In this document: piece after piece, positions 5,397 through 64,000 of the stretch
Position numbering within the stretch: the first letter of the stretch is position 1
Layout: each line of letters opens with the position of its first letter
NCBI GenBank assembly: GCA_902774915.1
Contig: CACYKH010000007.1
Span: 62,001 to 126,000 of the forward strand
DNA length: 64,000 nt
Origin: an uncultured Lachnospiraceae bacterium
Lineage (GTDB): Bacteria; Bacillota; Clostridia; Lachnospirales; Lachnospiraceae
Reading direction: 5' to 3'
The notes under the pieces: generated by a model
The model's input: only the letters and a program-made list of their open reading frames with translations
Told to the model about the DNA's origin: nothing
Database searches by the model: none
Program-made: the position numbers and the translations under genes

Positions 5397-6167
5397 ATGA
5401 ATAAAGATAGATTTCTTCAGAATAGATTCATTTTATCTGAACTTGTAAAAAAAGGTATACGCTTAAAATATAGAAGATCGTATCTTGGAATTCTCTGGTC
5501 ACTTTTGGAACCATTACTGACTATGATAGTTCTTACTATTGTATTTGGTACTCTTATGGGTGAAAAGACCAGAGATTTTCCTGTCTATATATTGTCGGGT
5601 AGACTTCTTTATACTTTCTACTCACAATCAACAACTGCAGCTCTTAAATCAATTAGAGCAAACAGTTCTATAATAAAGAAGGTATATGTACCAAAAATCC
5701 TGTACCCTCTTTCATCCATACTTTTCAACTTTATTATCTTTTTAATATCGTTAATAGTACTGGCACTTGTATCAGTAGTACTTGGAGTATATCCAACTCT
5801 TTATCTCCTGCAGGCATTTGTGAGCCTTCTTGTGCTGCTTATGCTTAGCCTTGGCTGTGGACTTATTCTTTCTACAGTAGGTGTTTTCTTTAGAGATATG
5901 GAGTATCTGTGGAATGTTGCACTTATGCTCATCATGTATACATGCGCAATTTTCTACCGTGCATCAAAGCTTCTTGGAAGTAAGTGGAGCTTTGTGCTGA
6001 AGCTGAATCCATTATTCTGTGTCATTGAAACATTCCGAAGTGCAGTGTTTGGAGAAATGATGAACCTGAAGTACCTTGCGTACTCGGTTGGATTTAGTGT
6101 TGTTGCAATCATAATCGGTGTGATTGCATTTAAAAAGAATGAAGATAAGTTTATTTTGGAGATATAA
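5397..6167 (+). CDS. ABC-2 type polysaccharide/teichoic acid exporter permease
   Basis: 256-residue membrane subunit of an ABC-2 exporter of the TagG/Wzm type, which carries lipid-linked cell-wall polysaccharide or teichoic acid outward. The N-terminal cytoplasmic part RRSYLGILWSLLEPLLTM is typical. About six hydrophobic segments follow, among them MIVLTIVFGTLMG, the stretch beginning YPLSSILFNFIIFLISLIVL, and ALMLIMYTCAIFYRAS. The ATPase gene starts 3 bp after the stop, and uppP follows. The family is secure. The transported polymer (teichoic acid, rhamnan or other glycan) cannot be told from sequence. Confidence 0.92.
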   Translation: MNKDRFLQNRFILSELVKKGIRLKYRRSYLGILWSLLEPLLTMIVLTIVFGTLMGEKTRDFPVYILSGRLLYTFYSQSTTAALKSIRANSSIIKKVYVPKILYPLSSILFNFIIFLISLIVLALVSVVLGVYPTLYLLQAFVSLLVLLMLSLGCGLILSTVGVFFRDMEYLWNVALMLIMYTCAIFYRASKLLGSKWSFVLKLNPLFCVIETFRSAVFGEMMNLKYLAYSVGFSVVAIIIGVIAFKKNEDKFILEI

Positions 6168-6170
6168 TTA

Positions 6171-6911
6171 ATGAGCGAAACAGTTCTTAGGGTTGAAGAT
6201 GTAAGCATGCGCTTTAACCTAAGTAAAGAAAAGCACGATTCACTCAAAGAGTATTTTATTGCACTTGCAAGACACGAGCTTGTTTTTAATGAGTTCTGGG
6301 CTCTTTCAGATGTTTCCTTCGAACTTGAGAAGGGAGACAGACTGGGAATACTTGGATTTAATGGCGCTGGAAAGTCTACACTTCTGAAAGTAATAGCTGG
6401 TGTATTTAAACCTACAAAGGGTAGCGTTGACAGGACAGGTGTGCTGGCTCCTCTTATTGAGCTTGGCGCAGGTTTTGATCCTCAGTATACCGGATTAGAA
6501 AACATTTACCTTTATGGTGCATGCTTGGGTTATAGTCATAAGTTTATCGATGAGAAGCTTCAGGATATAATAGATTTCTCAGAGCTTAAGGAATTTATTG
6601 ACGTGCCACTCAAAAATTATTCTTCAGGAATGCGTGCCAGACTAGGATTTGCTATTGCAACTATCGTAGAACCAGATATACTAATACTAGATGAAGTTTT
6701 ATCTGTTGGCGATGCTAAGTTTAAAAAGAAGAGTGAGGCGAAGCTGATGTCACTCCTTGAGAAGGATGTAACAGTTCTCTTCGTATCACATAATATAGAT
6801 CAGGTTAGAAGATTATGTAACAAGGCAATCATTCTTGATAAGGGTAAGATGATCGATTATGGTGATGTTAAAAAGGTATCAGACCATTATGAGGAGTTAA
6901 CCGGTAAGTAA
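6171..6911 (+). CDS. ABC exporter ATPase, TagH/Wzt type
   Basis: 246-residue ATPase partner of the preceding permease. It has a Walker A GFNGAGKST near residue 62, an ABC signature YSSGMRARLGFAIA, a Walker B DILILDEVLSVGD and the H-loop VSHN. The insert around LIELGAGFDPQYTGLENIYLYG is characteristic of O-antigen/teichoic acid exporters. It ends shortly after the ATPase core, so it lacks the C-terminal carbohydrate-binding domain found in some Wzt proteins and the long tail of Bacillus TagH. It probably forms an operon with the permease and uppP. Confidence 0.93.
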   Translation: MSETVLRVEDVSMRFNLSKEKHDSLKEYFIALARHELVFNEFWALSDVSFELEKGDRLGILGFNGAGKSTLLKVIAGVFKPTKGSVDRTGVLAPLIELGAGFDPQYTGLENIYLYGACLGYSHKFIDEKLQDIIDFSELKEFIDVPLKNYSSGMRARLGFAIATIVEPDILILDEVLSVGDAKFKKKSEAKLMSLLEKDVTVLFVSHNIDQVRRLCNKAIILDKGKMIDYGDVKKVSDHYEELTGK

Positions 6912-14224: not shown

Positions 14225-14489
14225 TGGGCTATACAGCATTTTTATAAAGTGTGAGTCACCCCTTGAATCCCATTTTTGATTGTTTTTAATGCTATATTGG
14301 CACTAAATGAGAGCTTATGGGTTATATAGGGCTATATAAAGCATAAGTCACCCGTTTGATTGCATTTGACGGGTGACTATCCTATTTGAAATACTTCTTT
14401 TAGCCCAGGGGCACTAATTTATGCATGAAAATAAGCCGTGTTTTCATACAAACGGGTGACGCATTGGATGAAAATGCTTTCTCAGCCCC
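14225..14489. repeat. intergenic four-site element, copy A (TGGGCT-N22/23-AGTCACCCGTT, >> <<)
   Basis: Most of the 581-bp gap between the glycerate kinase and the Pce-like gene. There are four bipartite sites. Forward: TGGGCT 14225 with AGTCACCCC 14254, and TGGGTT 14318 with AGTCACCCGT 14346. Reverse: ACGGGTGACT 14369 with AGCCCA 14402, and AACGGGTGAC 14451 with AGCCCC 14484. Spacers are 23, 22, 23 and 22 bp. Sites 2 and 3 form a perfect 10-bp inverted repeat (14346-14355 / 14369-14378). The same plan recurs at 30944-31196. The outer flanks (14075-14224 and 14490-14655) are AT-rich and show nothing further that I can identify. Confidence 0.85.
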
Positions 14490-30864: not shown

Positions 30865-30923
30865 GGTTATATGATTTAGGTTATAGGTTATATGGTTTTG
30901 GTTATATGAATTTGGTTTTATTG
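30865..30923 (+). repeat. short tandem repeat of GGTTATATG units
   Basis: Three 14-bp units (GGTTATATGATTTA 30865, GGTTATATGGTTTT 30886, GGTTATATGAATTT 30900), a 7-bp half unit GGTTATA at 30879, and a decayed GGTTTTATTG. They lie between the ftsH terminator and the four-site element. Confidence 0.75.
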
Positions 30924-30943
30924 TTTAGAAAGAAGCGGTGAGG

Positions 30944-31196
30944 TGGGCTCTATAATCAATAATTTATAAACGGTCACCCGTTCTTCATATTATTTAGCGG
31001 AAATAGTTCCTATTTGACGTTATTTGGGGTATGTCAATAAAAATGAATGAGGAGTCACCCTTTATTCTAGAAATAACGGGTGACTGTTTTGCTTATTACT
31101 CCAAATGAGCCCAAAACGACACTCTTAAGAATAATAATGATGCATATTATCACAATAACGGGTGACTTCAATTGTCTAAAAGTAACTATCAGCCCA
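30944..31196. repeat. intergenic four-site element, copy B (TGGGCT-N22/23-AGTCACCCGTT, >> <<)
   Basis: Second copy of the element at 14225. Forward sites: TGGGCT 30944 with GGTCACCCGTT 30972, and TGGGGT 31025 with AGTCACCC 31053. Reverse sites: AACGGGTGACT 31075 with AGCCCA 31108, and AACGGGTGACT 31157 with AGCCCA 31191. Spacers are 22, 22, 22 and 23 bp. The repeat distance is 81 bp (sites 1-2) and 82 bp (sites 3-4). Sequence between the conserved blocks is not shared with copy A. It fills most of the 599-bp gap between ftsH and the next gene. Confidence 0.87.
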
Positions 31197-31362: not shown

Positions 31363-32130
31363 ATGGACATAAAAGTACCTGTTATTATTGCCGTTTCATT
31401 TGGAATACTTGCCGGAATTGCAGTGTCATACAAGAGGCGACAATTATCAAAACTAAATGAGGTACAAAAAGAGAAAGTTATAATTGATAACTTTAAGAGT
31501 ACCGTAAAAACCGGTCTATATGCAGGAACAGGTTTTCTTTTTCTGTGTGCAATAATATGTGGGTTTATGTGTTTCAGGCTTTATAAAGAAGATGGGGACT
31601 TTGTTTTCAGAGATGTAACAGTAAATCTGAATGATGCTATTAAGAACGAAAATGAACCTGAGGCAGGAACATATGTGACTGCAAATTTCAGCCTTGTGGG
31701 AGAAGCGTTCTATTCAGATGATAATAGCACTATGTTTTATCCTGTAGTTCTAAATGATTCGGGAGAAAAACCCTGCGTCATCGCCATAAGAAGAGATATA
31801 GATGGAACAAATGTCATTGAATCATTAAACTATGTTGATGAATCTGTGAACTATATAAATAGTGGGAAAGATACTGGCAATCTTTCGGAAATAGAAGTGT
31901 CCGGACGGTATGTTGTTATCAGTCATAATCTGTCAGCTTACGAAAATGCAAATGATAACTCGAAAATAGATTATCAGAAATACAACATAAAGAATACATG
32001 TGTTGATATCACAGTTAGTAAAGAAAAACTAAAACACGATATAGTTGTTTTGTTTATAGCTTTTATTGTCTTTGTAGTAATGGGAACTGCAATGGTCATT
32101 ACAACGATAATACTATCTAAACACTTTTAA
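31363..32130 (+). CDS. membrane protein of unknown function
   Basis: 255-residue protein with three predicted helices: one at the N-terminus (VPVIIAVSFGILAGIAVSY), one near residue 50 (TGLYAGTGFLFLCAIICGF), and one at the C-terminus (IVVLFIAFIVFVVMGTAMV). An extracellular domain of about 150 residues lies between the last two. The ATG at 31363 follows GTGAGG; an open frame from 31252 has no ribosome-binding site. No domain recognised. It stands alone between the four-site element and a bidirectional terminator. Confidence 0.75.
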   Translation: MDIKVPVIIAVSFGILAGIAVSYKRRQLSKLNEVQKEKVIIDNFKSTVKTGLYAGTGFLFLCAIICGFMCFRLYKEDGDFVFRDVTVNLNDAIKNENEPEAGTYVTANFSLVGEAFYSDDNSTMFYPVVLNDSGEKPCVIAIRRDIDGTNVIESLNYVDESVNYINSGKDTGNLSEIEVSGRYVVISHNLSAYENANDNSKIDYQKYNIKNTCVDITVSKEKLKHDIVVLFIAFIVFVVMGTAMVITTIILSKHF

Positions 32131-32729: not shown

Positions 32730-32802
<73 letters not shown>

Positions 32803-38902: not shown

Positions 38903-38911
38903 GGTTTAGAT

Positions 38912-39125
38912 TTGTAGAGGACGCGATGATTATCAGTAGCGTATCTGATGAGGCTGGATCAGATGATGATATGTGAAAGGATGAATCGCCGAAGTCATGT
39001 AGTACCAGCGGCTATGTGGTCTGGGACTTAGATTAAGAGTCTAAGGACTGTCATCTTGAATTCAGGATGGAGTGCTACGGTATAGAGGATATTCTATGGA
39101 CCGAAACTCCGTTTTGGTCCATTTT
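38912..39125 (+). promoter_or_regulatory. lysine riboswitch (L box) with terminator, upstream of dapA
   Basis: The conserved aptamer blocks appear in order: GTAGAGGACGCGA at about 38914, GTGAAAGG about 38973, ATCGCCGAAG about 38985, GGTCTGGG near 39018 and AAGGACTGTCATC near 39043. A terminator with arms TGGACCGAAAC (39097) and GTTTTGGTCCA (39111), then TTTTC, completes it. Lysine binding should favour the terminator and shut off dapA, feedback control of lysine and diaminopimelate synthesis. Confidence 0.94.
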
Positions 39126-42246: not shown

Positions 42247-43203
42247 ATGTCTAAAGAAATGTTTAAAAACAAAATATTCCTTGGACCAATGGCAGGTGTA
42301 ACAGACCTGCCTTTTCGCATTTTATGTAAGGAGCAGGGAGCGGATGTAATGGTAACGGAAATGGTATCCGCTAAGGGACTTTTCTATAAGAGTCCAAAGA
42401 CACCGATACTGCTTAGTACAGATGAAAGAGAAAAACCAGTGGGACTTCAGCTTTTCGGAAGTGAGCCGGAAATAATGGCTGGCGAGGCAGTGAAGCTTCT
42501 GGATAGAGGCTTTGACTTTATAGATATCAATATGGGATGTCCTGTTCCAAAGATCGTAAATAACGGTGAAGGTTCAGCTCTTATGAAAAATCCAAAATTA
42601 GTTGAAGAAATTGTGCATGCTATTGCAACAGCTGTGCCTATTCCTGTAACTATAAAGATAAGGGCTGGTTTCAGCGCTGATTCTATTAACGCGCCTGAAA
42701 TTGCTGAGGCAGCTGAACGTGGAGGGGCGGCTGCGGTTGCAGTTCATGCAAGAACCAGAGAACAGTATTACAGTGGAAAGGCTGACTGGTCTATTATAAA
42801 GAAGGTTAAAGATGCAGTCAGTATTCCGGTAATAGGAAATGGTGATCTTAAGTCGGCAGAGGACATTCTCTGTATGAAAGAGGAGACTGGATGTGACAGC
42901 TTTATGGTGGCGAGAGCTGCCAAGGGTAATCCATGGGTATTCAGGGAAATCAAGGCTGGGCTTGAAAAGGGTCTGGATCAGGTTCCACCTCGACCAGAGC
43001 TGGATGAAATCAGAGATATGATGCTGAGGCATATAGACCTGATGATCAAGGAAAAAGGGGAGTACATCGGCGTCCGCGAAATGCGTAAGCATGTTGCATG
43101 GTACACCGAAGGAATATATAATAGTGCAAGACTTCGTAAACAGGTTTGCGAGATCGAGCACGAGGAAGAGTTAATAAGTATTATAAAGGAATTAGGGAAA
43201 TGA
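42247..43203 (+). CDS. dusB: tRNA-dihydrouridine synthase
   Basis: 318-residue flavoenzyme that reduces uridines in tRNA D-loops. The TIM-barrel landmarks are LGPMAGVTDLPFRIL, NMGCPVPKIV with its active cysteine, VHARTREQYYSG and VIGNGDLKSAEDI. I use the ATG at 42247 (MSKEMFK); a GTG at 42238 is also possible because neither has a clear ribosome-binding site. Its stop overlaps the next start (ATGA). DusB type is the usual Firmicute form. Confidence 0.92.
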   Translation: MSKEMFKNKIFLGPMAGVTDLPFRILCKEQGADVMVTEMVSAKGLFYKSPKTPILLSTDEREKPVGLQLFGSEPEIMAGEAVKLLDRGFDFIDINMGCPVPKIVNNGEGSALMKNPKLVEEIVHAIATAVPIPVTIKIRAGFSADSINAPEIAEAAERGGAAAVAVHARTREQYYSGKADWSIIKKVKDAVSIPVIGNGDLKSAEDILCMKEETGCDSFMVARAAKGNPWVFREIKAGLEKGLDQVPPRPELDEIRDMMLRHIDLMIKEKGEYIGVREMRKHVAWYTEGIYNSARLRKQVCEIEHEEELISIIKELGK

Positions 43204-46200
43204 GTAAAAAAAGAATAGGTTTAATAATCGCCGGAATCGTTGCAATGTGTCTACTTATTATAGGCGCAAGCGTTGGTACTGTTCTGTTAATTCGTGGAAG
43301 GAACACGGACAGAGCCAAAGATGGAAATGAAGTAAAGGATGTTAACAGCAGCGTAGGTTCAGCTCTTACGGGGGACGGAGTTGAGATTGAAAAGAGTGAT
43401 TCTTTTGGAAAAGTCGCTGATGATAACACAGTCATGATCTACATGGTAGGTTCGGACCTTGAGAGTAAGGCCGGAGCTGCTACCTTTGATATTGCAGAAA
43501 TGATGGCTAGTGGAGTGGACACATCTAAGACAAATGTAGTCATCTTTACAGGTGGTTGCAGTCAGTGGATGTCTGACATTTCCAGCGATAAGAACTATGT
43601 TATGAGACTTGATAAGAGCGGTCTTATAGAGGATGGTGCCACAAATAGCATTAATAACATGGGTGATCCAAATACACTTCTTGGATTCCTGAATTTCTGT
43701 ACAGATAATTATAAGTCTGATCACTATACGCTTATCTTCTGGGATCATGGTTGTGGTCCTGTTTATGGATACGGAGTAGATGAGCTTCATAGTAACGATA
43801 CACTTACCTATCCAGAGATGGAGGCAGCCCTTGTTGCTTCTGATTTTGACAGTAAGAACAAGATAGACCTTGTTGGTTTCGATGCCTGTCTTATGGCTTC
43901 TATTGAGTATGCAGATCTTTTCTCATCATATGCTGATTACATGGTTGCATCTCAGGAGGTTGAGCCAGGACTTGGATGGGATTATTCATTCCTGAATACA
44001 TATAATTCAACAAGTGATCCAAAGAAGATAGGAACAGCAGTGGTAGATGCTTTTGGTGATTTCTATTCAAGTCACATAAGTATGATGAGTAACCCTCTTT
44101 ACACACTTTCTGTTATGGATCTTTCAAAAACAAATAAGGTTATAGAGGCGAGCAATGACCTCTTTGAAGATATGTATAAAGGACTCGGAAAAGAAGATTA
44201 TGCCGAGATAGTAAAGGCAAGAGATAATACAGTCAACCTTGGTTCTACTGCATATGGTTCAAAGGGAGATGCAATCGATGAGGTTGACCTTGGTTCTGTC
44301 GCTGATGAGTTTGGTAATCTTTATAAAGGATCCTCCAAGGATCTGAGTGACGCAATTGATGACCTCGTAATTAAACAGGCATCAAATGTTGATGGTACAT
44401 CAGGTATATCCATTTACTTCCCATATAATAACCAGATGTTCTATCAGTACTATGGTGAGAAAAGTATAGAAAGCATTTCTATTGGTGAAGAGTATTCAAC
44501 TTTCGTTGAGTCCTTCGCAACAGCATGGGAAAGTGATGGACAGAATGTATCGGACTTTTACACAGAGCTCGATACTGATGAAGAGGAATCTACTGAAGAA
44601 GAAACAACAGAAGAGACGACTGAGGAGTCCACAGAAGCTTCTACTGAGGAAGCTACAGAAGCTACCACAGAAGAAACAACAGAGGAAACTACTGAGGAGC
44701 CTACAGAACCAGTTGAGGATGCATCTTCTACAGATGCTGAATATATCGGTTCAAAGAAGACACTTAGTGTAAAGCTTTCCAAGGAACAGCAGAAGAATAT
44801 GGCTCAGGCAACTTATTCTGTATTTATGAAGAATTCAAGTGACGATACAACTGAGGCATATCTTCCAATATTTACAAATATAAAGATAAAACCTGATGAG
44901 AACGGAGAACTTTCAGTTCCTTATGATCCAGAGATTCTTGTTGCTTCATCCTATGATGGAGATACACCATGGCCTTTCAAACAGGTAGAGGATAACCTGG
45001 CTGGAAAAACTATTTACCGTTCAAATGGTCAGTATCTTATAAGTTCAATCAAGGACTTCCCAGATACATCAACAGAGCAGGTTGTTTGTAATGTGTCCAT
45101 GCAAGACGGAGAACAGCCTAAGATTCTCAGCTTTGACGCAGTTTCAGATTCAGAGCTTGTAGGAAAGAATGATATGACTCCAGAGGGCTGGGGCTATATG
45201 GCATACTATGCACCTACATATCTTCCTGTTACCAGTGTAGATGGTAAGATGCTTCCTTACTCAGAGTGGGATAGAGATGGCATTTTCCATATGGTATACA
45301 TTTCACTTGGAGAAAACTTTACATTTGCTACTAAAAAGCTTTCTGAAATTGACGCAGAGTTTGCGGTTCAGATTACTATCAAGGATGTAAAGGGAAATGT
45401 ACACGCCACAAGCCTTGTAGATTTCACAAGAAATGCAAGAACAAATACGAGTATCGGAACTGAGGAAGGAAAGATAGATGTTTCTGTTTTCTCAGACCAT
45501 GTAGTTATTAATTCCTATGAAGGAACGGACACAGAGCTTGTTATACCTGATTCTGTTCAAGGTGTTCCAGTAACTGCTATAGGACAGGAGGCTTTCAAGA
45601 ATGCAGGGATGACAAGTGTAGTAATTCCTGAGGGCGTAACAAATATTGGTCCGGAAGCCTTTAATAGGTGCGAAAATCTTGAAACAGTTGAGCTGCCTTC
45701 AACTGTTGAGTATATAGGTATGGACTCATTTGCTTACTCAGAAAAGCTTAGTTCGATTAATCTGCCTGAGGGGCTGAAGACAATAGATGATTTTGCATTT
45801 GATCAATGTTCTAGTCTCACAGAGGTGACAATTCCTTCTACTGTTGACTATTATGGACCTGGGGCATTTGCATATACTACTAAAATTACATTGGAAGGAA
45901 ATGAGAATTACCAGTATCTGGCAGATTCAATCTTTACTGCCGATGGTAAGACACTTGTTCAATGCTTCTCGACAGAGGAAAATTACTCTATACCAAGTGG
46001 AACTGAAGTGATAGGAGCATATTCCTTCAGAGATAATCTTGATATTAAGACAGTTGATATCCCTGAGGGAGTACGACTTATTGATGATGGCGCTTTCTTC
46101 CAGGCTGAAAATCTTTCTGATATAAAATTGCCGGATTCAGTTGAAGAGATTGGTGACTCTGCATTTGGATGCATAGTATTCACAGAAAAGAAGAAGATAG

Positions 46201-47213
46201 ATAAAATAAGCTTTGGTTCAAAGCTTACCAAGCTTGGTAATAAAGTGTTCAGAGGATTTGAAGTAGGAAGCTTTGAGGTATCAAAAGATAACCAGTACTT
46301 CAGTACAGTTGACGGATTTCTGACTAATAAGTCAAAGGACGGCCTCATACTTGCACCTACTACATCTGATAATGAAGTGAAGATTCCAGATGGAATAATC
46401 AGTGTTTATTCAGATGATTTTATGTCACAAAATGAGGGCGTTGAAAAGGTTACACTTTCTGACTCAGTCAGAGTGCTTAATGCCGATTCAATGTACTCAG
46501 TTAAGGAACTTCATATTGGAAAGAAGCTGAGATTCATTCTTTCCATGAATATGATGGGCAGCATTCAGAAGTTGACTATCAATGAGAAGAATAAGTACTT
46601 TACTATTAAGGATGATGTTCTTTATTCTCATGATATGAAGGAGCTCTACATTTATCCTCAGGAAAAGAAGGATAAGAAGTTCGAGGTGCCTGAGGGAGTT
46701 GAGAAGCTGGAAATGGGAGTTTTCAGCGACAATACCTACATGACAAGCATCAAGCTTCCATCAACACTTAAGGATGTTGGTCAGCGTGTTGGTTCTTATG
46801 AGGCAAATGCACTCAGTGAGATTACTACACTTACAAAGATAACTGTAAGCAAGAAGAATAAGAAGTATACATCTGCAGATGGCATTCTCTATACCAAGGA
46901 TGGTGACGAGGTAGTAGCTATCCCAGCTGCCATTAAGGGAGATGTAAAGATCAGATCCAGTGCTAAGATAATAGGTAAGGGTGCGGTTCAGAGTCTGAAG
47001 AATATAAATTCGATTACTCTTCCTGATGGTATGACAACCATCCGTTCCGGAAACTTCTATACTGTTTCAGGAGAAGTACATATTCCTGAGAGTGTGAATT
47101 ATATCTCAGAACGTTCATTTATTGACGCAGGAGAAGCTACAATTTATGGTAAGAAAGGTTCAGTTGCAGAGAGTTTTGCACAGAGTAAGGGACTGAAGTT
47201 CGAGGAGGAATAA
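43200..47213 (+). CDS. membrane-anchored clostripain-family (C11) protease with BspA-type repeats
   Basis: 1337-residue surface protein. The start at 43200 overlaps the dus stop (ATGA). One N-terminal helix (IGLIIAGIVAMCLLIIGASV) anchors it. The peptidase C11 domain covers about residues 75-450, with the catalytic pair H183 (FWDHGCG) and C230 (VGFDACLMAS). A spacer of about 45 residues made of T/E repeats (EETTEETTEES) follows at about 460-505. Then a beta-rich region leads to a run of BspA-like leucine-rich repeats (about 760-1320), with units such as LPEGLKTIDDFAFDQCSSL. C11 enzymes cut after Arg or Lys and are common in gut Clostridia. Repeats of this type bind host or surface ligands, so adhesion plus proteolysis is likely. 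Confidence 0.9.
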   Translation: MSKKRIGLIIAGIVAMCLLIIGASVGTVLLIRGRNTDRAKDGNEVKDVNSSVGSALTGDGVEIEKSDSFGKVADDNTVMIYMVGSDLESKAGAATFDIAEMMASGVDTSKTNVVIFTGGCSQWMSDISSDKNYVMRLDKSGLIEDGATNSINNMGDPNTLLGFLNFCTDNYKSDHYTLIFWDHGCGPVYGYGVDELHSNDTLTYPEMEAALVASDFDSKNKIDLVGFDACLMASIEYADLFSSYADYMVASQEVEPGLGWDYSFLNTYNSTSDPKKIGTAVVDAFGDFYSSHISMMSNPLYTLSVMDLSKTNKVIEASNDLFEDMYKGLGKEDYAEIVKARDNTVNLGSTAYGSKGDAIDEVDLGSVADEFGNLYKGSSKDLSDAIDDLVIKQASNVDGTSGISIYFPYNNQMFYQYYGEKSIESISIGEEYSTFVESFATAWESDGQNVSDFYTELDTDEEESTEEETTEETTEESTEASTEEATEATTEETTEETTEEPTEPVEDASSTDAEYIGSKKTLSVKLSKEQQKNMAQATYSVFMKNSSDDTTEAYLPIFTNIKIKPDENGELSVPYDPEILVASSYDGDTPWPFKQVEDNLAGKTIYRSNGQYLISSIKDFPDTSTEQVVCNVSMQDGEQPKILSFDAVSDSELVGKNDMTPEGWGYMAYYAPTYLPVTSVDGKMLPYSEWDRDGIFHMVYISLGENFTFATKKLSEIDAEFAVQITIKDVKGNVHATSLVDFTRNARTNTSIGTEEGKIDVSVFSDHVVINSYEGTDTELVIPDSVQGVPVTAIGQEAFKNAGMTSVVIPEGVTNIGPEAFNRCENLETVELPSTVEYIGMDSFAYSEKLSSINLPEGLKTIDDFAFDQCSSLTEVTIPSTVDYYGPGAFAYTTKITLEGNENYQYLADSIFTADGKTLVQCFSTEENYSIPSGTEVIGAYSFRDNLDIKTVDIPEGVRLIDDGAFFQAENLSDIKLPDSVEEIGDSAFGCIVFTEKKKIDKISFGSKLTKLGNKVFRGFEVGSFEVSKDNQYFSTVDGFLTNKSKDGLILAPTTSDNEVKIPDGIISVYSDDFMSQNEGVEKVTLSDSVRVLNADSMYSVKELHIGKKLRFILSMNMMGSIQKLTINEKNKYFTIKDDVLYSHDMKELYIYPQEKKDKKFEVPEGVEKLEMGVFSDNTYMTSIKLPSTLKDVGQRVGSYEANALSEITTLTKITVSKKNKKYTSADGILYTKDGDEVVAIPAAIKGDVKIRSSAKIIGKGAVQSLKNINSITLPDGMTTIRSGNFYTVSGEVHIPESVNYISERSFIDAGEATIYGKKGSVAESFAQSKGLKFEEE

Positions 47214-63433: not shown

Positions 63434-64000
63434 ATGGATAATAACATGAATCCTAATCAAATGGGTCCAGATCCTAGTATGATGTCAGGTCCTCAACAGC
63501 CACAGGCACCACAGCAGGATTTTGGCCAGCAGCCACAGGCACCACAGCAGTTTGGTGGACAGCCACAGCAGCAGTTCGGTGGACAGCCACAGCAGCAGTT
63601 CGGTGGACAGCCACAGCAGCAGTTCGGTGGACAGCCACAGCAGCAGTTTGGCGGACAGCCACAGCAGCAGTTTGGCGGACAGCCACAGCAGCAGTTTGGT
63701 GGACAGCCACAGCAGCAGTTTGGCGGACAGCCACAGCAGCAGTTTGGTGGTCAGCCACAGCAGCAGTTCGGCGGACAGCCACAGCAGTTTGGTGGTCAGC
63801 CACAGAACCAGTATGGTCAGCCACAGATGGGCGCTCAGCCAGGTATGGTTTATAATGATCAGCCAGCACAGCAGCCAGGCGGACCTGGAATGGGTGGACC
63901 AAAGCAGCTACCTAAGCCACCAAAGGAAGGCGGAAGCAAAACTGGTCTTATCATCGGAATAGTTGCTGGTGCAGTTGTTCTTATTGGACTTATTATTACA
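63434..64000 (+). CDS. PQQQFGGQ-repeat membrane protein, C-terminus cut by window edge
   Basis: Open frame of 189 codons without stop to the window end, starting MDNNMNPNQMGPDPS after GGGGAG. The N-terminal ~155 residues are low complexity, mostly Gly, Gln, Pro and Phe, with nine exact 8-residue units GGQPQQQF plus two shorter ones. A basic Pro-rich stretch (PKQLPKPPKEGGSK) leads to a hydrophobic helix TGLIIGIVAGAVVLIGLII at the edge. This suggests a cytoplasmic, unfolded region anchored in the membrane, with an outer domain beyond the window. The function is unknown. Confidence 0.85.
   Translation, partial: MDNNMNPNQMGPDPSMMSGPQQPQAPQQDFGQQPQAPQQFGGQPQQQFGGQPQQQFGGQPQQQFGGQPQQQFGGQPQQQFGGQPQQQFGGQPQQQFGGQPQQQFGGQPQQQFGGQPQQFGGQPQNQYGQPQMGAQPGMVYNDQPAQQPGGPGMGGPKQLPKPPKEGGSKTGLIIGIVAGAVVLIGLIIT
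63554..63790 (+). repeat. 24-bp tandem coding repeat (GGQPQQQF)
   Basis: Nine 24-bp units from 63554 to 63769, then a 21-bp unit lacking one Gln codon to 63790. Units differ mainly at third codon positions (TTC/TTT, GGT/GGC), so the protein repeat is kept while the DNA drifts. Repeat number may vary between strains by slippage. Confidence 0.93.

Follow-up and report, generated by a model that had tools for sequence, protein, structure and literature searches.

The ends of Mu and Tn7 and lambda attP combine repeated sites with a bending site at whole-helical-turn spacing. IS200/IS605 elements are not known to leave a target duplication, and Tn7 makes duplications of 5 bp. Replication-oriented insertion is described for IS200/IS605 and Tn7-TnsE elements (PMC5371812). 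The direct repeats of MITEs wane with age, according to a review (PMC10969869). Among the TIMEs tabulated in PMC4133298, 4 of 18 are flanked by direct repeats; the insertion of TIME-RES made a 5-bp duplication, and few database TIMEs keep one. REPs (PMC3733652) are palindromes of 20–40 bp with GTAG or CGTC tags, present in high copy number.

The window, i.e., the whole stretch of 64,000 nucleotides analysed here, corresponds to G000:C7:62001-126000 of the source genome (G000; a draft of 2.61 Mb in 67 contigs) and contains two copies, A and B, of an element composed of four sites (Table 1). Each site is bipartite, 35–36 bp long, with GGGNT 23–24 bp upstream of GTCACCC on the site's own strand. 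In copy B, GTCACCC is located at 30973 and 31054 and GGGTGAC at 31078 and 31160, which gives the order >> << (two sites on the plus strand, then two on the minus strand); the layout of copy A is identical. All four sites of copy B and their order, as reported in the preliminary description, are present at the coordinates listed. A search for GGGNT-N23/24-GTCACCC on both strands of the whole window returned eight sites, which divide equally between A and B; the expectation is 0.035 per window (mean of 200 Markov-1 simulated windows), and the claim that the rule exceeds chance is thereby confirmed. That all eight sites obey a single rule is true of the GTCACCC part; the outer part deviates in two of them (GGGTT in A site 2, GGGGT in B site 2). 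The site-to-site distance of about 82 bp applies to both arms of B (81 and 82 bp) and to one arm of A (83 bp), and fails for the other arm of A (92 bp). The earlier account of the spacers should be amended: an interval of 17 bp separates the inner sites in each of the four source-genome copies.

Table 1. Positions of the element copies, their sites and the adjoining repeats in the window.
Feature	Position in window	Strand	Motif or length	Basis
Copy A, whole four-site element	14226..14488	.	263 bp, ~25 helical turns	
A site 1 (outer)	14226..14261	+		pattern search
A site 2 (inner)	14319..14353	+	GGGTT variant	
A site 3 (inner)	14371..14406	-		pattern search
A site 4 (outer)	14454..14488	-		pattern search
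Diverged 14/21-bp tandem repeats (GGTTATATG...) outside copy B	30865..30926	+		
Copy B, whole four-site element	30945..31195	.	251 bp, ~24 helical turns	
B site 1 (outer)	30945..30979 (G000:C7:92945-92979)	+	GGGCT-N23-GTCACCC	pattern search
B site 2 (inner)	31026..31060	+	GGGGT-N23-GTCACCC	
B centre, between inner sites	31061..31077	.	17 bp	
B site 3 (inner)	31078..31112	-	GGGCT-N23-GTCACCC	pattern search
B site 4 (outer)	31160..31195	-	GGGCT-N24-GTCACCC	pattern search

In the whole source genome, GGGCT-N16..32-GTCACCC has 14 matches, all of them inside four clusters, and the reversed control has none; two further sites fall outside this GGGCT count (A2, GGGTT; B2, GGGGT), and this pattern detected no single site away from the elements. 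The clusters are A, B, C (G000:C2:218772-219033) and D (G000:C3:30914-31175). Of the 61 genomes of the genus, two contain the arrangement GTCACCC-N17-GGGTGAC, namely the source genome (4 places) and G305 (17 places; MAG RUG10561, an uncultured Lachnospiraceae), with no control matches. The search for further genomic copies foreseen in the preliminary description was thus successful, yielding C and D in the source genome and more in G305. The 17 places were counted as 15 distinct elements, since in two cases the ends of two contigs have 99 bases in common; we infer that these ends belong together, such overlaps being also possible as assembly branch points. One element is split in this way into g070 and g071. 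The 15 elements comprise ten four-site and five three-site copies (the latter g046, g063, g067b, g068, g074a). The three-site copies are devoid of one outer site, no degenerate fourth site being detected by the R1 scan of their loci, and their remaining GTCACCCGT parts are intact, except in g067b, where the outer part of site 2 is also gone. In addition, G305 carries a half element (G305:C96:6999-7172) and a single site at a contig end (C98:8085). Both genomes are drafts, and elements lie at several G305 contig ends.

R1, a sequence model of the element centre built from 19 copies, was run on 61 genus and 397 family genomes, and the best candidates of each genome were scored (at most 68 in the genus and at most 10 in the family). 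Among these, believable elements were obtained only from the source genome and G305; all 68 scored G305 candidates (of 765) matched, so the copy numbers there are lower bounds. No site off the elements except the one at the contig end was found among these 68 of 765 candidates, single sites often being below the threshold. Genomes as close to the source genome as G305 or closer (by ftsH or tsf) had no match. Weak R1 matches in G326 and seven other family genomes were, by eye, single hairpins, other short repeats or coding-like sequence, and a lookalike in G327 lies within apparently coding sequence. The exact 18-base centre was found in 24 stretches of a collection of genomes from 84,980 species, 15 of them from RUG10561; the other nine, as well as all five viral stretches with this centre, are single hairpins or TGTCACCC arrays and do not have the four-site layout. 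An earlier viral match proved GC-rich and unrelated by eye. Arrays of TGTCACCC/GGGTGACA occur in rhizobial genomes and similar viral contigs (L101-L105, L080, L082, L087, L100) in a different layout and are perhaps an iteron-type control region. An origin from a phage or plasmid was examined by blastn: copy B and one G305 copy retrieved nothing from plasmids; from phages, copy B retrieved only one 31-base fragment (E = 0.9) and the G305 copy nothing. No ORF of at least 80 codons spans an element (23 rows), and three overlap an edge by 8–51 bp. Among the literature matches listed, no title describes such an element. The family appears to be a novel type of small element, either mobile or associated with the chromosome.

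The geometry of the element is quantised. Arms, measured from outer to inner GTCACCC within a search range of 75–100 bp in source-genome and G305 copies, fall into two classes one helical turn apart, 8 of 81–83 bp and 25 of 92–93 bp (1 of 81, 6 of 82, 1 of 83, 10 of 92 and 15 of 93 bp), with no other length among these 33, which are not independent because the G305 arms are related by descent. The R1 scan of the same loci detected no further site at any other distance from a centre. The 17-bp central gap in G305 is not an independent result, since the copies there were found with that gap. Element lengths are 251, 262, 262 and 263 bp in the source genome and 262–274 bp in the eight complete G305 copies (the edge of g076 is ambiguous by 3 bp); these totals approximate 24, 25 and 26 helical turns (10.5 bp each). 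Since the spacing steps are about one helical turn, the proteins would be seated on one face of double-stranded DNA, and the phased sites point to a putative protein complex there.

Before the sites were counted, 4 of 75 were dropped as read twice over contig overlaps. The site consensus is approximately TTTCGGCTATATG-N15-GGAGTCACCCGT in G305, which is not itself palindromic, and TTTGGGCT-N23-GAGTCACCCGTT in the source genome. The outer sites, of the (G/C)GGCTATAT type and in inverted order, constitute terminal inverted repeats. GTCACCC is identical in 55 of 55 G305 sites used, an invariance partly conditioned by the fact that sites were picked by GTCACC. The spacers within G305 sites are 34–40% identical between copies (29% is expected by composition), and the flanks 26–33%. 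Judged by its spacers, nearly every G305 copy would represent a lineage of its own, which is unusual for recently amplified copies.

A fifth motif, TTATGTAAAC (at most 1 mismatch), is present in 10 of 33 arms, i.e., in 10 of 25 in G305 and none of 8 in the source genome (shuffles: mean 0.25, maximum 3). It stands 44, 53–54 or 64 bp from the inner GTCACCC, again in steps of about one helical turn. Since it never occurs in both arms of one copy, the G305 copies have an alpha arm and a beta arm. All five three-site copies retain the TTATGTAAAC arm, the opposite outer site being absent. Fourteen of the 15 G305 copies were oriented by arm type, by eye, before the strand test; g069, which has no clear arm type, was left out. 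A leave-one-out profile agrees with this orientation in 14/14 cases with a strand-blind alphabet and in 12/14 as a nucleotide profile. With the alpha arm on the left, the DNA around the element shows a negative GC skew for 13 of 14 copies (element itself excluded; two-sided p 0.0018), g046 being the sole exception; for copies defined by TTATGTAAAC alone the rule holds in 9/10 (p 0.021). The coding majority agrees with the orientation in 14/15 rows (the g070 and g071 rows are halves of one element). Copies g063 and g073 have convergent immediate neighbours and still follow GC skew, which leans towards replication over transcription, although GC skew is itself coupled to gene direction. In the source genome the G305 nucleotide profile gives the expected orientation in 4/4 copies and the strand-blind A/T versus G/C profile disagrees for A, B and C; because of this disagreement these copies were left out of the polarity count.

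Formation of a structured RNA or a hairpin was considered as well. Rfam has no match over the element; elsewhere in the window, at 38907-39085, a lysine riboswitch was identified (RF00168, 112 bits). Applied to a 98-column central alignment, RNAalifold predicts 16 pairs, nearly all of them within the sites, and yields a covariation term of -0.06 kcal/mol. Both partners have changed in 4 of the 16, including a lone spacer pair (9 sequences changed, 4 broken). The inner site pair could form a 10-bp hairpin. Complementarity of the 14 bases beside the inner sites is 0.481 within copies and 0.402 between them, a value reached by 16 of 5000 permutations; it is led by g070, g064 and g065. This excess counts against a purely double-strand reading and could reflect an RNA or single-stranded DNA hairpin, or template switching at a palindrome. 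B site 1 contains a single terminator-like match (shuffle mean 0.4), and in copy D a terminator is situated between tsf and the element. Ten rows have both neighbours called, of which 8 are co-directional and 2 convergent. Terminator-like hairpins with AGTCACC...GGTGACT-type stems recur outside elements in several Lachnospiraceae (L046 8931-8970, the right flank of L064, L124-L126, L142).

The neighbouring genes encode glycerate kinase and a choline-binding protein at A, FtsH and a protein without a Pfam match at B, a nucleotidyltransferase (rfbA type) and an amidase at C, and EF-Ts and an M24 peptidase at D. The G305 neighbours include phosphofructokinase, CTP synthase, FeoB, a GMP synthase C-terminal-domain protein and a D12 methyltransferase; choline-binding repeats were found in 4 of 33 flanking proteins scanned. 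The protein after copy B has 255 amino acids (window 31363-32130; no Pfam match), and a tRNA lies at window 32730-32802. The neighbours differ at each source-genome and G305 place; the preliminary description had called those of B unrelated to those of A. It had also named two findings that would speak against it, a single copy per genome and constant company of one gene family; there are 4 and 15 copies per genome, not always beside one family. Its reading as a mobile or genome-organising element, and not a gene-specific operator, stands in this either-or form.

The empty-site check proposed in it was first considered at copy B, where the gene behind ftsH has no counterpart in the 19 relatives' ftsH loci examined; for this reason D was chosen for the test. 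A tsf/M24 search matched 51 of 61 genomes, and the best 29 other loci were compared with the source genome. Both tsf and the M24 peptidase gene are present in 13 of these 29, and in all 13 the element is absent from the gap between them, which answers the check in favour of an empty site. The distance between the aligned ends in the 13 is at most 206 nt in nine and consists of 498–1163 nt of other DNA in four; the source-genome intergenic region measures 466 bp, of which the element takes up 262. In G352 (tsf 89% at the DNA level) the gap is more than 100 bp shorter than removal of the element alone would make it, and hence other DNA was gained or lost too. In G307 the same gap holds a gene of a Y1-type (IS200-like) transposase (L191 2890-3630) with TATGCAAATAGGGACGGTTCTC-type repeats around; the tsf/M24 gap seems to accept insertions.

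Copies g064 and g065/g067a, at different G305 loci, share about 92% identity, and their homology stops where the outer sites do. The longest flank repeats of the 14 four-site copies average 2.07, compared to 1.86 for mismatched flanks. Repeats of 5 bp were found in two copies, both joined over contig ends: CATTT beside both edges of g070/71 and AATCT 5–6 bp off the edges of g065/67a; 9 of 182 mismatched flank pairs have such a repeat. A 5-bp target duplication is possible in single copies, the repeat of g070/71 being the one plausible case. The proteins scanned beside and near the elements include no member of a recombinase family, the genome-wide search covering the Tn3 type alone: Tn3 transposase (PF01526) is encoded by 0 of 61 genus genomes, and 2 of 14 control genomes are positive. 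A Tn3/TIME origin, suggested by the 262-bp length and the site of about 38 bp, was set aside on this ground. In G305:C96 a half element (L074 5203-5372) and the full g074b (6101-6375), about 1 kb apart, share by eye the left flank and site 1, and the arm of the half element resembles that of g075; this suggests that copies may have exchanged sequence.

Of 37 element edges, 22 have a tandem repeat (period at least 9, TRF score at least 40) no farther than 120 bp away; among 57 control intergenic blocks from the same loci, unmatched for distance from genes, 11 contain one (p 1.3e-4). Several arrays begin inside the outermost element bases. Elsewhere in the window are a tandem array of a 24-bp unit at 63545-63817 (11.5 copies, 91% matches) and, at 44601-44708, a degenerate 24-bp repeat inside a 1355-codon ORF (43146-47213).

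Considered at the sequence level, these data call for a protein complex on DNA that would be both polar and phased and could move, at the least on an evolutionary time scale. The reading favoured here, tentatively and with somewhat more doubt than confidence, is a non-autonomous mobile element whose sites could seat a phased polar nucleoprotein complex and which would be spread by a replication-coupled recombinase. A trans-acting recombinase-type protein would bind the four sites, a DNA-bending helper could sit in one arm, and together they would fold the DNA into a synaptic complex needing sites on one helical face. The element would then be copied to new intergenic places, leaving no regular target duplication, with copying coupled to the direction of replication as in IS200/IS605-type elements or Tn7-TnsE. 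Mobility is supported by presence and absence at D together with the 92% pair at two loci; polarity is compatible with it because replication-oriented insertion is described for IS200/IS605 and Tn7-TnsE, and the weak hairpin signal would likewise be in keeping with a single-strand mechanism. Weighed against it were the failure to find an autonomous copy or, for the Tn3 type genome-wide, a transposase, the absence of a target duplication excess, the near-random spacers beside invariant GTCACCC, the intact remaining sites of the three-site copies and the gap mismatch in G352. As the main alternative, the element could be a resident of the chromosome: a host protein would assemble on the four phased sites in a polar manner and there mark, pause or guide something replication-borne (fork, translocase or SMC-like loader), and copies would be kept by selection, one orientation being tolerated or needed. 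This is possible, although on balance unlikely. Invariant sites amid near-random spacers, orientation following GC skew in 13/14 copies, target duplications not above chance, the TTATGTAAAC arm kept by 5/5 three-site copies that miss the opposite outer site, and the edge tandem repeats (22/37 versus 11/57), producible by repeated fork trouble or nicking, all agree with it; however, a core chromosome function should be wider than 2 of 61 genus species, and the 92% pair, the empty D gap in relatives and the differing copy number (4 versus 15) speak against it as well. It is also conceivable, if rather improbable, that the element is of a new kind, a gene-less polar four-site scaffold of whole helical turns that is both spread between intergenic places and kept by a fork-linked complex, with one orientation surviving and the edges gaining tandem duplications.

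A classical MITE, derived from a DDE transposon by internal deletion, retaining its terminal inverted repeats and moved in trans, with target duplications since decayed, would have the size below 500 bp, the non-coding, intergenic and multi-copy character and the inverted ends reviewed in PMC10969869. The lack of direct repeats is weak evidence against it, as only 4 of the 18 TIMEs tabulated in PMC4133298 have them, and g070/71 carries a 5-bp direct repeat at its edges; the two 5-bp repeats raised this reading to a level at which it is still quite unlikely. It does not account for full sites duplicated inside both ends with fixed helical phasing, for orientation following GC skew, or for flank repeats without excess over mismatched flanks in 14 copies, and no parent element was found by the pattern search of the source genome or by R1 in G305 (68 of 765 candidates). 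A very unlikely role would be at the level of transcription or of a hairpin, such as a terminator, an insulator, a structured RNA between operons or a cruciform. The within-copy complementarity (16/5000 permutations) raised it to this level, and it fits the 8/10 rows between co-directional genes, the possible 10-bp hairpin of the inner pair, the AGTCACC-type stem hairpins elsewhere in the group and the terminator-like match in B site 1; against it, Rfam has no match, the covariation term is -0.06 kcal/mol, arm lengths differ in steps of about one DNA helical repeat, D already has a terminator between tsf and the element, and g063 and g073 follow skew in convergent contexts. An operator cluster of one dispersed regulon would explain paired inverted sites and the choline-binding repeats in 4 of 33 flanking proteins, but is hardly credible, as FtsH, EF-Ts, the nucleotidyltransferase, phosphofructokinase, CTP synthase, the GMP synthase C-terminal-domain protein and FeoB share no function.

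Repeated copies within one genome can expose a large protein–DNA complex from sequence alone, here through four bipartite sites, a bending-type site, helical phasing and polarity. Identifying the partner protein would tell whether multi-site ends and use of the replication fork are within reach of small non-autonomous elements, or whether these Lachnospiraceae possess a polar chromosome site so far unrecognised.

Among known systems, the Mu and Tn7 ends and lambda attP belong to recombinase-carrying elements, whereas the present element is gene-less and has 4–15 copies. REP/BIME units with RAYT transposases (PMC3733652) are likewise intergenic and inverted and possibly spread by a single-strand transposase; the sites here are instead bipartite, 35 bp long and non-palindromic, united in one composite of fixed geometry, and do not correspond to REPs. 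The orientation of copies along replication, read here from GC skew as a proxy coupled to gene direction, would be shared with the IS200/IS605-type and Tn7-TnsE elements treated in PMC5371812. TIMEs, as far as tabulated in PMC4133298, have nearly the same, similarly conserved length (262 bp) and a less conserved core, and most also lack direct repeats, but they possess two 38-bp Tn3-type ends and are usually single-copy, in contrast to four sites and 4–15 copies. With prokaryotic MITEs (Correia, Chunjie and QMITE2; PMC10969869) the element has in common small size, non-coding sequence, multiple intergenic copies, inverted ends and truncated forms; it measures 251–274 bp, has 4 and 15 intergenic copies and carries terminal inverted repeats. 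It differs from MITEs in having no target duplication above chance and no known parent transposon, as well as in its four complete sites in place of two ends, its helically quantised spacing and its GC-skew polarity.
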